Part shown: positions 4,551 through 31,900 of the stretch, piece by piece
How positions within the stretch are numbered: position 1 is the stretch's first letter
Layout of the letters: every line of letters begins with the position of its first letter
From: a virus
Strand: one strand, 5' to 3'
DNA: 34,101 nucleotides
IMG/VR virus record: IMGVR_UViG_3300038701_000727
Span: 1-34,101 of that record
Position numbers and translations under genes: made by a program
Notes under the pieces: generated by a model
Databases searched by the model: none
What the model was told of the DNA's origin: nothing
Seen by the model: the letters and a program-made list of their open reading frames with translations, nothing else

Positions 4551-5018
4551 TTATAGTTCGACGCTTGCCATGTCAACGATCTTAGCCTGATCGGATAGGC
4601 GTTTCTTAGCGGCCTTGATAACGTCTTCTTGCTCGGCGATCTTAGCAGCGGCTTCTTCAAACTGCTCCTTAGTAACATCGTCCTCAGCAACCTTACGACC
4701 TGCTGCTTTGATCTTAGCGCGCAATGCTTCTTTAGCAATCTTGAGTGCTTCTTTCTCAAGTGGGTCCATTTTAGCTGAACCACCTTCGCGTGGTGAAGTG
4801 AACTCGTATTCGGCATCGTACTCAGCTACGACCTTAGCCGCGTCATCGTTGTTGCCAGCTTCAAGCAGTTCTTTGATGCGCTTTGCAACGTTATTGCGAA
4901 CGTTCTCGGTGCGAGTCTGGTTGAGGACTTTGGCTTCGATCTCAGTCAATGTGTGACCTGCTGCGAATGGTTGAGACACATTGAAAATTGCGCCTTGGAT
5001 TGTAACTTCTTTTGTCAT
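4551..5018 (-). CDS. Hypothetical helical phage protein, probably well expressed, 155 aa
   Basis: It begins with a short beta-like lead (TKEVTIQGAIFNVSQPFAAGHTLTE, residues 2-26), after which the protein is almost entirely helical and charged (alanine, lysine and glutamate rich), including ENVRNNVAKRIKELLEAG and a long C-terminal coiled-coil-like stretch. Proteins with this lead and helical body are common in podovirus early regions but have no assigned function that I know. It has its own sigma-70-type promoter 43 bases upstream and a strong hairpin after its stop. This suggests a separately regulated, abundant product. GGAAG lies about 9 bases before the ATG. A structural or nucleoid-like role is conceivable but not shown. 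Confidence 0.75.
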   Translation of the reverse strand: MTKEVTIQGAIFNVSQPFAAGHTLTEIEAKVLNQTRTENVRNNVAKRIKELLEAGNNDDAAKVVAEYDAEYEFTSPREGGSAKMDPLEKEALKIAKEALRAKIKAAGRKVAEDDVTKEQFEEAAAKIAEQEDVIKAAKKRLSDQAKIVDMASVEL

Positions 5019-5096: not shown

Positions 5097-5156
5097 CCCC
5101 CGTTCCACAGTTAAATATGGTTTGTGACATTTTGTCGGGGGCCATATGGGGCTGTG

Positions 5157-12744: not shown

Positions 12745-12798
12745 CCTAGTCCCTTTCCGTTCCACGTCTATCCGTGGTCCAGTTCGTGTTAATGGGGT

Positions 12799-12836
12799 GC
12801 GACTCGCCAAGAGGTTTAAGGGGAGCGGCGAGTCGC
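12799..12836 (-). promoter_or_regulatory. Perfect 10-bp hairpin in the leader of the early operon
   Basis: GCGACTCGCC (12799-12808) pairs with GGCGAGTCGC (12827-12836) around an 18-base loop. No T-run follows on the minus strand, so it is not a standard terminator. It lies between the promoter at 13006-13034 and the first gene at 12744, where it could act as an attenuator, RNase site or mRNA stabiliser. Confidence 0.5.
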
Positions 12837-12852
12837 GATTTACAATATTAAC

Positions 12853-12874
12853 TTACTTCATGCCTAGGCCTCCT
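12853..12874 (-). promoter_or_regulatory. Consensus Shine-Dalgarno followed by a Met-Lys-stop minigene
   Basis: On the minus strand AGGAGG (12869-12874) is followed at 7 bases by ATG AAG TAA (12861-12853). This is the best ribosome binding site in the region, yet the frame codes for only two residues. It lies in the leader, 17 bases before the 10-bp hairpin. It could be a translated leader minigene, or the remains of a decayed gene start. A six-codon frame (12893-12873) and an 18-codon basic frame (12980-12924) precede it but have poor ribosome binding sites. Confidence 0.4.
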
Positions 12875-13005
12875 ATTTGCGCACCTCGAACATGTCCGGA
12901 CTCTATCCGTGGTCCCGCGTGCGTCAGTTGGTTAAAAGTGAACCGCGCGCCGAACGAGTAGACTTTACGCCCTTTTTCATGGTCGGTCGGCGGCGATTCC
13001 CGTTT

Positions 13006-13034
13006 ATTATATCAGGACTGGCGGCAATGGTCAA
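13006..13034 (-). promoter_or_regulatory. Strong extended -10 sigma-70 promoter of the main early operon
   Basis: On the minus strand TTGACC (13029-13034) is 17 bases from a perfect TATAAT (13006-13011), itself preceded by TGA, giving an extended -10. Transcription should start near 12999 and enter a leader of about 255 bases before the first clear gene (start 12744). It is the best match to the sigma-70 consensus in the window, so the early arm is probably transcribed by host RNA polymerase. Confidence 0.8.
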
Positions 13035-13089
13035 AATATTATTTTAAGTATGTTTCTCATGTTCTTGTTTTAAGAGGCGCGGGATCGGT

Positions 13090-13316
13090 CCTGCATGCAC
13101 CTTAATGCACCTAGTGACCTGTTTTAAATCGGGCCCCCGTGGGTGTGGGTGTGGGTATGGCTGGGGCTGGGTATGGTTGTAGTGTGTGTTTAGTAGTGTT
13201 AAAAAAATCTCTCTCACTGATAACAACAACAAAAAGGGAGGTGGGACCATACCCCTCAACAGGCCATCGGGGGGGAAAATAAAACAGGTCCGTAGGTGCA
13301 TCTAGGTGCGTGCAGG
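13090..13316. repeat. 37-base inverted repeat (32/37 matching) carrying four AGGTGC-type motifs
   Basis: The left arm 13090-13126 is the reverse complement of the right arm 13280-13316 at 32 of 37 positions. Each arm holds two tandem AGGTGCAT/AGGTGCGT units followed by TGCAGG, so four copies point towards one another. The arms enclose about 150 bases that include the G-quadruplex motif and the A/T-rich patch. Iteron-like motifs beside an A/T-rich patch are typical of replication origins. A protein-binding or packaging site is an alternative. Confidence 0.65.
13141..13171 (+). other. G-quadruplex motif
   Basis: Five runs of three or four guanines (13141-13143, 13147-13149, 13153-13155, 13163-13166, 13169-13171) are separated by loops of 3, 3, 7 and 2 bases, which satisfies the usual G3N1-7 rule for intramolecular quadruplexes. 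It lies on the strand opposite to early transcription, so the transcript-template relation would expose it as single-stranded DNA rather than RNA. Confidence 0.6.
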
Positions 13317-13464
13317 TCGACTCATGGGCGCGGGTGTGGGCGCGGCATGTCGGGGGGAAATGTGGGCGCAATGGGCGGAGGTTTGCGCGTGGTGGGCGGC
13401 GTGGGTATGGGATGGCCAATCGCCCACGGGCGGGCGGTGCGGCGTTGTGCGGACAAAATAAAAA

Positions 13465-13490
13465 CCCGCGAGCCATAATGAACTCGCGGG
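13465..13490 (-). terminator. Intrinsic terminator after the 155-aa gene at 13511-13978
   Basis: On the minus strand CCCGCGAG and CTCGCGGG (13483-13490 and 13465-13472) form a perfect 8-bp GC-rich stem with a 10-base loop, followed directly by TTTTTATTTT. This is a textbook Rho-independent terminator, 20 bases after the stop codon. Confidence 0.9.
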
Positions 13491-13510
13491 CTTAATCGGT
13501 GTGGAGTTGG

Positions 13511-13978
13511 TTAGAAGTCTAACTTGATATCAAGATCGGCAACGGCGGCCTTGGCCTTATCGTCGATCTCTTTCAGTTTGGCCGCGTGCTTATCAACCGC
13601 GTCGACTTGTGCGGGAATAAGAAGGCGATAGAACTCGTCAAGATAGGCGTTGCGATCGGCGGCGTTTTTATAGCCATCCGTTTCCCGCACCTGATCGCGG
13701 ATGATATTACGACGATACTTCACCAACGGATCGGCGGTGCGAGTCGTACGTTGTACCGTGCCCGCTTTGATATCCGCAAGCGCTTGTGCCACGATCCGCT
13801 CCTTTTCGTCGGGCGTTTTCCCGCCAGTCTTATCATTAATAAAGCGTTGAAAGCCGTATTGAAAAATCTTGACCGCGGCCTTGCCATGAATATCCGCAAG
13901 CGCGTGTTGGTATGTTTTACCGCCAACAGTTGCCTCGATTACATCCGCGTCTAGTTCGATTGTGATAACTTTAGTCAT
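13511..13978 (-). CDS. Hypothetical phage protein from its own transcription unit, 155 aa
   Basis: The protein has a beta-like start (TKVITIELDADVIEATVGG) and then a mainly helical, charged body (GKAAVKIFQYGFQRFIND, KTPDEKERIVAQALADIKAG, basic KYRRNIIRDQVRE) and ends in a lysine-rich coiled stretch (HAAKLKEIDDKAKAAVADL). I know of no function for this type. It has its own promoter 28 bases upstream and its own intrinsic terminator, so it is probably made early and in quantity. The start at 13978 was chosen for AAAGGAC 8 bases upstream. A longer reading to 14023 would start inside the promoter. Confidence 0.75.
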   Translation of the reverse strand: MTKVITIELDADVIEATVGGKTYQHALADIHGKAAVKIFQYGFQRFINDKTGGKTPDEKERIVAQALADIKAGTVQRTTRTADPLVKYRRNIIRDQVRETDGYKNAADRNAYLDEFYRLLIPAQVDAVDKHAAKLKEIDDKAKAAVADLDIKLDF

Positions 13979-14012
13979 TGTGTCTGTCCTTTCATTTACA
14001 TTGACAAGTGCT

Positions 14013-14040
14013 ATTATGCACATATTTGAGCGGTTGTCAA
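14013..14040 (-). promoter_or_regulatory. Sigma-70 promoter for the gene at 13511-13978
   Basis: On the minus strand a perfect TTGACA (14035-14040) is followed after 16 bases by CATAAT (14013-14018, five of six). Transcription would start near 14006, about 28 bases before the ATG. The -35 box abuts the stop of the upstream gene. A plus-strand TTGACA about 30 bases away makes the outer edges inverted (TTGACAA...TTGTCAA), possibly an operator. Confidence 0.7.
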
Positions 14041-14342: not shown

Positions 14343-14502
14343 CAAGCCCGTTTGAGAAAAGCGGCTTCGACGGGTACGCCCCGCCCCTGCCCCAGCCAGG
14401 ACCTTTCAAAATTCTGCGGGCTGAAAACACCCACTTCCCTTTCCCAGCCCTATATGGTTCCCGTCAATTTGTCACGGGCCATACCCGCCGCGAAATTCGC
14501 CC

Positions 14503-14531
14503 TTGCCACCGCCGCCGCCTTATGATACATT
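14503..14531 (+). promoter_or_regulatory. Candidate sigma-70 promoter of the late (virion) arm
   Basis: TTGCCA (14503-14508, five of six) and TACATT (14526-14531, four of six) are 17 bases apart, with transcription expected near 14538 and the first start codon at 14556. A small dyad CCCGT/ACGGG (14460-14464 and 14474-14478) lies upstream. The spacer is a CCG repeat. The match is moderate, as expected for a regulated late promoter. Confidence 0.5.
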
Positions 14532-14555
14532 CGGGACAACTGATTGGAGTATGGC

Positions 14556-28964: not shown

Positions 28965-31900
28965 TGCCACGTTTACCAAATCAGACTACATCTAATCTAC
29001 CTGCGGCATTACCTTTCGAGGATAAAGCTGATCCAACCTTTAAGGGGATCGTGGATGCAGCTATCCGCTCAGAGAATGATGTGTATAACTTCTTTGACGG
29101 GATGCAACAGCCTACGTTCGATCCCGATCCTGAGTTCTCATTGGCCGAGGCATTGAAAAAACGCCCTGAGTTTGTACTCGCGCCGAACAGCGCTTTGAAT
29201 GAGTCGCAAAGTCAGGAAGAGTTCGACTTCATCCTGCAAAAGATTGCGAAGGAACGCGAGGACCAAGACACACTTAATCGCGCTGGTGTGCCTGGGTTTA
29301 TCGCGGCGGTGGCCTCTAGCATCATTAGTCCGACCAGTTTCCTCCCGCTGATCGGACAGGCCCGTGGTGCTAGGGCCATCGCGGTTGGCGCAGGGTATGG
29401 ACTGCTCGGCGCGGGTGCACAAGAGGTTACGCTGCAGGCAAATCAAGTGGATCGCTCGGGCGGAGAGACTGCGTTGGCTGTGGGAACCAGTGCGATTTTG
29501 GGCGGGGTGCTTGGCGGAATTGCGGGCAGACTCACTCGGGCGGAAAGAGAAGCGCTTGAGTCCGGTATGGCTTATGACAATTTGTCGTCGCCCATACCTA
29601 GCTCCCCGATCGCCGCACCCAATCAACCAACTGCAATCATGCAATCACCTGCACCTCAGGCTGTGAGTGGGCGCTATGCCGAGGCAGTTATCAATTCAGA
29701 TGTAGATGAAGTAGTACTGAGAGGAAAGTATGATGAAATATCCACGCAAGTTCGCCAGTCCGACCCCGAACTTAACCAGCGTTTTACTGCGGCGGAAGCA
29801 CGAGTTGCGGAAGTCGCAAGAAAAATTGAAGCGTTCGAACAGCTTGACGTCGACAGCGTATCAGAATTGGCAGCGAAACGTAGTAACCCTGACCTCTTCA
29901 GGGAGCGTGACCGTCTATTGCGGACCAAGGAGGTCCTCCAAAAGCGTATTGACGAACTGAAGTTTGGCGAGAAGCAAGCACTGGAGAAAGCGCACGCCTC
30001 TGCCACAGGCAAACGGAAGAAAATCGCGAAGCAAAAGTTGGATAAGGCCACGACGGACGAGACTCCCGAAACATTGGAACTCCGCCAACGCCTGATGCAG
30101 AACGATTTCAAGCTTCGAGATATCGCGGAAGAGGTTTCGGCTGAGCTACGGATAGGTAAAGCTAAGGCAGAGGGCTATGATCCTAGTAAACTCTACAAGC
30201 AGTTACGCCGCGCCCAACGCGATCTCGGTCAAATCCAAGCTCAGGTTGAGGATGCTATCTTCGCGTCTGAGGAATGGGCTACGGTACTCCGTGATGGAGA
30301 CAAAGAAATTGATGATTTAACTGCACTGACTCAGGATACGTCGCCCGAGTTCGTGCACTCCACCGATGCTTTTGGGTCGTCGAGTGGAGCGGCGGGCGGT
30401 GCGGCCACCTCTCAGTCCACGCCCGCCGGAAAATTAAAGGGGCCTCAGATACCTGGCCTTACCAAACTTAGCCCTGTAACGCGCCAATTGCAGAACAAGA
30501 CCTTGCCATTCGCCCGTTTCTTTATGGCGCAGCTGAGTACGGCGGGCCTCCGGCTGCAAGGTAACACGCAGGGCATTGCCTCTTCCGTGGGCGGGACCGT
30601 AGAGCAGCGCATCAAGGTGCATCATAAGCTGCTCTACGATGGCCTCCGTATGCTAGATGAACAGTATGTAGCATGGCGGACTGAGCTTGGTAAAGGCAGA
30701 GGCCCTATGACGCGCAAGGAATTTAACGTCGAGGTGTCTCGGGCCATGCGTCAGGGAGGCGAATTTAAAGGGAGTAAGGCCGCTCGTATGTCAGCGGATC
30801 GTCTTCGCAGTGAGTTCTACACCCCGCTATTTGAAGAGGCTAAGGGCGTGGGAATGTTTGACAACCTGCCAGAAGGACTGGTGGGAGATGAGGAGTATCT
30901 AAACCGTGTTTTCCGTAATGAGATTATTGAGCAAAGGTTCCCTGAGTTTGTTGAAAAGTTGGCTGCGAACTATCAAGTTAAACTTGAGGCGGATATTGCT
31001 AAGCGAGTTAACAGGCTGCGCGCGAAAGAAGCCGATCTTAACTTTGAGCGACAGGCGCTCGATGGAATGGACACAGCTAAATTACGCGTTCAGTATGAAG
31101 CGGCGATCAGTTCGGCAAATAAAGCGGAGGCAAAAACAGCCAAGTCGCGGCTTAAGATACTGGACTCAGTCGCAGAAGTTAAAGCGGCGAAAACAGTGAA
31201 CGCTCGGATCAAGGCTATCGATGAGGCTATCCTCGGGAATAAGCTGGACGAGGGAGAGAAACTTAGAGAGATGGGAATTGAGGATGCGGATTTTGACGCT
31301 AATAAATTCGATACTGGCACGGCGGCTATGGACAAAGCGAGGGAAACAGCGCATAAAATCCTCGGTACCTACAACCGCCTTCCCGCCCGTGACATACTGG
31401 TCGAAGCTAGAGGGGCGGAGTTACGCCGCGTACTTAACATCAACTCAACCGAGATCGAAGAGTTCCTCGAGAACGACATCGAAATACTTATGTCACGCTA
31501 CCTGCGAACGCTTGGGCCGGATATCGAGCTCACTCGTAAGCTAGGCGATAGCACAGGTACGCAATGGTTCACGCGCCTAACTGAGGAACATGAGAAGGTA
31601 TTGTCCGAGTTGCCTGAGGGCGATCGTGCAAGCGCAGTCACAGATTTCCAAGACGCGCAACGTGACCTGATGGCAGTGATTTCCAGAATGCGGCACACCT
31701 GGGGTATCCCCAACAACCCTACAGGTGTAGCAGCTAGGGCGGCGCGAGTAGTTATGAACATCAACACTCTAAGGTTCATGGGTTCGGTGATGATATCATC
31801 TATCCCAGACCTCGCCCGCCCGATCTTCCGTTATGGCCTTACTCGCACATTCCGTGATGGCTTCATACCTATGATCGCGAATTTCAAAACCGCGAAGCTG

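Follow-up and report, generated by a model that had tools for sequence, protein, structure and literature searches.

A conserved non-coding tract with phage-specific inverted arms around a poly-A run is predicted to be the replication origin of a podovirus group

Origins of the SV40/papillomavirus type, in which inverted clusters of initiator sites lie beside an A/T tract, resemble the tract described here in layout only and are not homologous to it. Similar to this tract, the origin of phage lambda has repeated short initiator-type sites by an A/T-rich, strand-asymmetric tract and is linked to the phage's own replication genes (PMC7466680). The mobile elements with MCM-like helicases, represented by the MCM-like helicase of SCCmec and the DUF927/DUF3987 predictions, share with the phages of this study an AAA+ candidate initiator/helicase with an MCM-like predicted fold and a winged helix, and because DUF3987 occurs fused to primases, an earlier study predicted it to serve mobile elements as a replication helicase (PMC5862659). 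For genome ends, the closest case is Caulobacter phage Kuura, whose 606-bp direct terminal repeat was mapped with PhageTerm by Laanto and Oksanen (PMC9959647) and whose mapped end is within its version of the tract. In the literature found, no replication origin was described for this phage group and no origin was tied to DUF3987.

The window, i.e., the whole stretch of DNA analyzed, is a complete IMG/VR virus record of 34,101 bases and represents a 34.1-kb fragment of a podovirus, the closed relatives of which are ~45 kb long. Its early genes are on the minus strand left of ~14.4 kb and include those for a Sak4-like annealing ATPase, a PD-(D/E)XK exonuclease, a UvrD-type helicase and a ligase; its late genes are on the plus strand from 14.5 kb. 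Relatives of its portal were found in epsilon15-like and many other phages at identities below 60%. The portal of the sister phage G001, a 45.3-kb closed circle, was at 80% to that of the window. G001 encodes three proteins that are absent from the window: a family A DNA polymerase (PolA) split from its exonuclease, a DUF3987 primase/helicase-like protein and a ParB-methyltransferase. As the window is a fragment, the DUF3987 and PolA genes of this phage are beyond its ends. Phages like that of the window are referred to as W-type phages; TerL and MCP denote the large terminase and the capsid protein. Genes were called with a simple caller of our own, and the scoring thresholds were likewise set by us. 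A search for related loci with gene 13511–14023 as the query recovered the sister phage alone.

The tract lies in the largest intergenic gap of the contig, which measures 766 nt and not the 430 bases given in the preliminary description. The genome is also not otherwise gapless, as five other gaps of 297–345 nt were found in the contig. The homologous gap is ~680–1140 nt long in G001, G002, G004, G005, G007, G011, G014, and G017. The non-coding nature of the tract was confirmed, for the ORFs inside 12745–13510 had no tblastn match in the relatives. The features of the region are as follows.

12745–13510, no strand: whole non-coding region holding the tract, 766 nt, by gene calling
13006–13034, minus strand: promoter-like site, TTGACC-17-TATAAT (11/12), which would read left into the early genes
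13090–13126, plus strand: left arm of the inverted repeat, with two GCACCT (13097 and 13107) 10 nt apart
~13141–13171, plus strand: five-run G-quadruplex motif, not conserved in most relatives
13154–13161, plus strand: GGTATGGC half-site, 38-fold enriched in the tracts of relatives
13170–13176, plus strand: second half-site, GGTATGG
13201–13207, plus strand: A7 run, the dyad center; A7 to A40 in relatives, the A's of W-type phages being on the late-gene strand without exception
13208–13240, plus strand: A-rich block to the right of the A7 run; the two together are proposed to be the unwinding element
13246–13252, minus strand: CCATAC half-site, facing 13170–13176 across the A-run
13280–13316, plus strand: right arm of the inverted repeat, with two AGGTGC (13294 and 13304) 10 nt apart
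13462–13493, minus strand: terminator-like hairpin, which would end transcription from gene 13511–14023; a comparable hairpin is right of the tract in the relatives read

The imperfect inverted repeat of 37 nt that had been noticed before was borne out, with 32 of the 37 positions matching (86%). Its arms are 153 nt apart and nearly symmetric about the A7 run, as their ends are 74 and 72 nt away. Its score of 26.0 was reached by 0 of 40 dinucleotide shuffles, whose maximum was 12.0, and it was the best inverted repeat of the whole contig among gaps of 50–380 nt. The four AGGTGC-type copies facing each other, the A/T-rich patch (13193–13236, 70% AT, including the A7 run) and the bounding terminator-like and promoter-like elements were also found as described. 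Moreover, G001 has a TATAAT at the place equivalent to that of the promoter-like site, in similar surroundings. Three other elements are present in the window but were not conserved. The whole contig has G-quadruplex motifs in two places only; of 31 tracts, 9 carried one on the plus strand and 6 on the minus strand, and the motif was therefore rejected as the functional core. The G excess of the tract (154 G vs. 80 C) has no constant counterpart, as the G/C skew of the tracts varied in sign among phages. Finally, the duplicated TGTGGGCGC, with copies at 13335 and 13361, was not conserved in our reading of the relatives' tracts.

When the tract was compared with related phages, as the preliminary description had suggested, it recurred at the equivalent place with arms that matched within each phage. 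The IMG/VR relatives carry there a late-strand poly-A run flanked by an inverted repeat. For instance, in the gap of G001, GCTGTATTACATCAACCCACGTTATA faces TATAACGTGGGTCCACGTAATACAGC around an A11 run, at the same position as in the window and with a different sequence. The distance between the arms ranged from 73 to 291 nt in the relatives. Among 32 tracts compared, the median score of a phage's left arm against its own right arm was 25.7 vs. 9.0 for the cross-phage pairs (n = 992); the 99th percentile for random positions was 13.2. The own-arm score exceeded the 99th percentile of the cross-phage pairs in 27 of the 32 tracts, and sister phages, such as G008/G017 and L142/L143, accounted for most of the highest cross-phage matches. 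The distances of the left and right arms also correlated (r = 0.69). In addition, the A-run of the W-type tracts is bordered by two blocks, one of pyrimidines (−12 to −23) and one of purines (+7 to +25). Thus, the conserved set consists of the A-run, phage-specific inverted arms, pyrimidine/purine blocks, GGTATGGC half-sites and a right-hand terminator. The inverted repeat was weak in G005, G007, G035, L129, and Kuura. In most genomes with the replication module, the tract was the best inverted repeat of the genome (gap of 50–380 nt).

Among 18 further genomes with DUF3987, 14 had a non-coding run of A≥8, and the run was missing in four (G031, G032, G039, and G040), two of which are fragments of 35–37 kb. 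Five of the 14 have a contig end at the run or very close to it, which prevents an assessment of the repeat. The single uninterrupted long palindrome of a hairpin telomere (protelomerase type) was not found in the tract, whose arms are separated in the window and in the relatives. A perfect 70-nt inverted repeat at the end of the G029 contig (1–338) is probably an assembly fold-back artifact.

Two features of iteron-type origins were found. Direct repeats at a lag of 10 nt numbered 0.29 per flank, compared with 0.019 for random stretches of genome; such helix-phased, initiator-type repeats, to which the AGGTGC units of the window belong, are as expected of protein-binding iterons on DNA and are putative binding sites. 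The adjacent A/T-rich tract, A7 to A40 in the 32 tracts, is a putative site of unwinding. The same repeats bear on the possibility that the arms pair within a transcript as a structured non-coding RNA. Such an RNA would account for arm complementarity that is kept while the sequence changes, but the 10-nt spacing within the arms fits a DNA-bound protein, no Rfam match was found even at E ≤ 5, and the tract is located between a terminator and an outward-facing promoter. We regard an RNA as very improbable.

The tract could also be an island of transcription control only, in which a divergent operator/promoter and a terminator are combined with the half-sites of a regulator and there is no role in replication. 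The early promoter-like site on the left and the terminator on the right are consistent with this, as are the GGTATGGC half-sites that the tract has in common with a dispersed, promoter-near 31-nt dyad. However, it leaves unexplained the universal poly-A, the phage-specific symmetric arms and the linkage to the replication module, and other intergenic gaps were without such a repeat, so that transcription control as the only function appears improbable. Similarly, the central core with arms is reminiscent of an attP integration site, in which inverted arm-type sites surround a core. A tyrosine integrase (PF00589) was absent in 14 of 14 genomes tested whereas 14 of 14 controls were positive; attP was rejected on this ground and has a negligible probability.

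Further comparisons showed which genes the tract accompanies. Its occurrence follows that of the replication module (PolA, DUF3987, and Sak4), including in phages whose terminase, portal and capsid are undetectably related to those of the window. For Mel-JY34, ctMlz233, and Kuura, no match to the TerL, portal or MCP of the window was detectable, and all three possess PolA and DUF3987. The tract is the best repeat of Mel-JY34 (inverted-repeat score of 21.4), where a T9 run is on the opposite strand because the late genes are inverted, and of ctMlz233 (35.0, with A9); it is weaker in Kuura (14.6, with A12). Conversely, six phages, G010, SR18, Carin1, AF, PfDIW6, and HU1, have TerL, portal and capsid of the window type without PolA, DUF3987 and Sak4, and these controls, six in number only, had no A-run with a strong inverted repeat (best scores of 13–17, inner A-runs ≤6). 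Thus, the tract is not co-inherited with the terminase, and it is linked to the phages' own replication genes via PolA and DUF3987 across unrelated packaging modules, although the candidate initiator gene is not adjacent. At longer distances the structure varied. LS06-MD01 (A17), vir526 (A6), and ctLwi270 had strong repeats with a deviating core or orientation, VS-ABTNL-3 had an AT-rich inverted repeat, PaMx41 had a weak one spanning the ends of its record, and the remote replication-module phages Tiera and EBPR podovirus 3 had no such structure. We read the tract as a probable element of the replication module that decays or changes at long distance.

The preliminary description had named a packaging or genome-end site as the main alternative. 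According to this alternative, a direct terminal repeat begins at the tract: the small terminase subunit (TerS) binds the inverted arms around a bent A-tract and the terminase cuts nearby, so that the terminal repeat of the window would extend from ~13265 to somewhere upstream of TerS. In the Kuura record (L144), the terminal repeat (43208–43813 = 1–606) begins inside the local version of the tract (43141–43247), immediately before the right arm and ~55 nt to the right of the A12 run, and it stops 144 nt upstream of TerS. The published experimental mapping therefore places a physical end inside one version of the tract. In W-type phages, the tract is ~1 kb upstream of TerS. Moreover, several contigs and the record of PaMx41 end in or near the tract; how the ends of the PaMx41 record were set was not found. 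However, the tract follows the replication genes and not TerL, portal and MCP, in both directions, and G001, G004, G011, G023, and G030 close as circles that read through it. The contig ends at the tract were discounted as physical ends, because they fall in or near poly-A runs, where assemblers break, and other relatives are circular through the tract. The contigs of G002, G017, G024, G026, G036, and G037 start or end in or near such a run (A9 to A29), which is probably an assembly effect that can be mistaken for genome ends.

The Kuura end could be compatible with a neighboring origin, so that origin and genome end may be adjacent, or the tract could serve mainly to form the end. Because the terminases differ, the module test argues against this second possibility. 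Weighing this test against the Kuura end, on evidence that is comparative throughout, leads us to regard a replication origin as the probable function of the tract in this podovirus group and an end-forming site as rather unlikely. An origin is preferred to a packaging-linked site because the tract keeps its position, its arms co-vary within each phage and it follows the replication genes. The resemblance to an origin that had been proposed at the outset thus persists on these grounds, and not on the G-quadruplex, G excess and TGTGGGCGC copies cited for it. Cumulative GC skew, also proposed as a check, had its maximum, not its minimum, 0–5 kb left of the A-run in five closed relatives. Early genes run mostly leftward and late genes rightward from the region, and both meet on the far side of the circle, a layout that itself speaks for an origin; since gene orientation alone can explain the maximum, the skew was not used as evidence.

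The likely initiator/helicase is the DUF3987 protein, the obvious ATPase that these phages have in common, whose gene is the distal one of the early operon. The AlphaFold2 model of the DUF3987 protein of G001 (L085, 1934–3145) had a pLDDT of 87, and the best 50 PDB matches listed for it were all MCM helicases or their complexes. The best of these had E values of 1e-10 to 1e-8 and TM-scores by query of ~0.4–0.5, and they include double hexamers on duplex DNA. DUF3987 is thus predicted to have an MCM-like AAA+ domain and a C-terminal winged helix, which is a similarity of fold and not proof of MCM activity. A sequence search of solved structures with DUF3987 gave mostly low-complexity or chance matches. 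One scan of IMG/VR revealed 507 relatives of DUF3987; a scan of the genome contigs with the DUF3987 of the sister phage gave no match. The mean identity was 0.37 for the winged helix vs. 0.49 for the AAA+ core, as expected if the winged helix follows the changing arms. This difference is compatible with co-evolution with the arms and does not prove it.

From this predicted fold and the anatomy of the tract, we infer how initiation might proceed. The phage initiator, presumably DUF3987, would bind the short repeats spaced by ~10 nt in both inverted arms, one arm per side. The A-run with its pyrimidine-left and purine-right borders would then melt, and helicase, primase and PolA would be loaded at the melted run, probably bidirectionally. 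A more specific version, which we offer tentatively and hold to be unlikely in full, is a dyad origin in which inverted phage-specific iterons surround the poly-A core, MCM-like DUF3987 is loaded as two opposed rings and the terminase cuts beside it, a layout like that of MCM double-hexamer/SV40-type initiation.

Different from the lambda origin, the repeats of the tract are in two inverted arms flanking a poly-A run, the tract is located between genes and distant from that of the candidate initiator, and its arm sequences differ among close relatives. The lambdoid O/P-type arrangement, with iterons inside an O-type gene, was not found, as the tract is intergenic and no homolog of lambda O or P was found among the proteins scanned. 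Compared with the MCM-like mobile-element systems, what is new is a candidate cis site for DUF3987, identified by linkage. Different from a boundary of a Kuura-type direct terminal repeat, the tract is linked to replication genes. If the origin reading is right, a poly-A center with inverted phage-specific arms would be a recognizable origin signature for a widespread, uncharacterized podovirus replication system. It would also match a candidate initiator of MCM-like fold to a candidate cis site; the winged helix of the former and the target arms both change fast, so that initiator specificity would be open to swap experiments in a cultured phage. In Kuura, origin and genome end would be joined at one locus.

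The 31-nt dyad mentioned above, TATGG-N21-CCATA, was found in 35 copies in 26 related genomes vs. ~1 copy for each other spacing. Its half-sites recur in the tract as the GGTATGGC motifs, its inner half-sites are phage-specific, and it is probably the operator of a regulator. The window has copies at 5116–5146, 14453–14483, and 29566–29596. In several relatives, the dyad is 89–104 nt upstream of the homolog of early gene 4551–5018, and it also occurs upstream of TerS. A further position is inside the internal virion protein gene, at nucleotides +599 to +617, though the encoded residues differ. Finally, a late-promoter-like TATGAT and one dyad copy are located in a conserved non-coding stretch 5′ of TerS (14366–14540 of the window), which the window has in common with G001 and G002.
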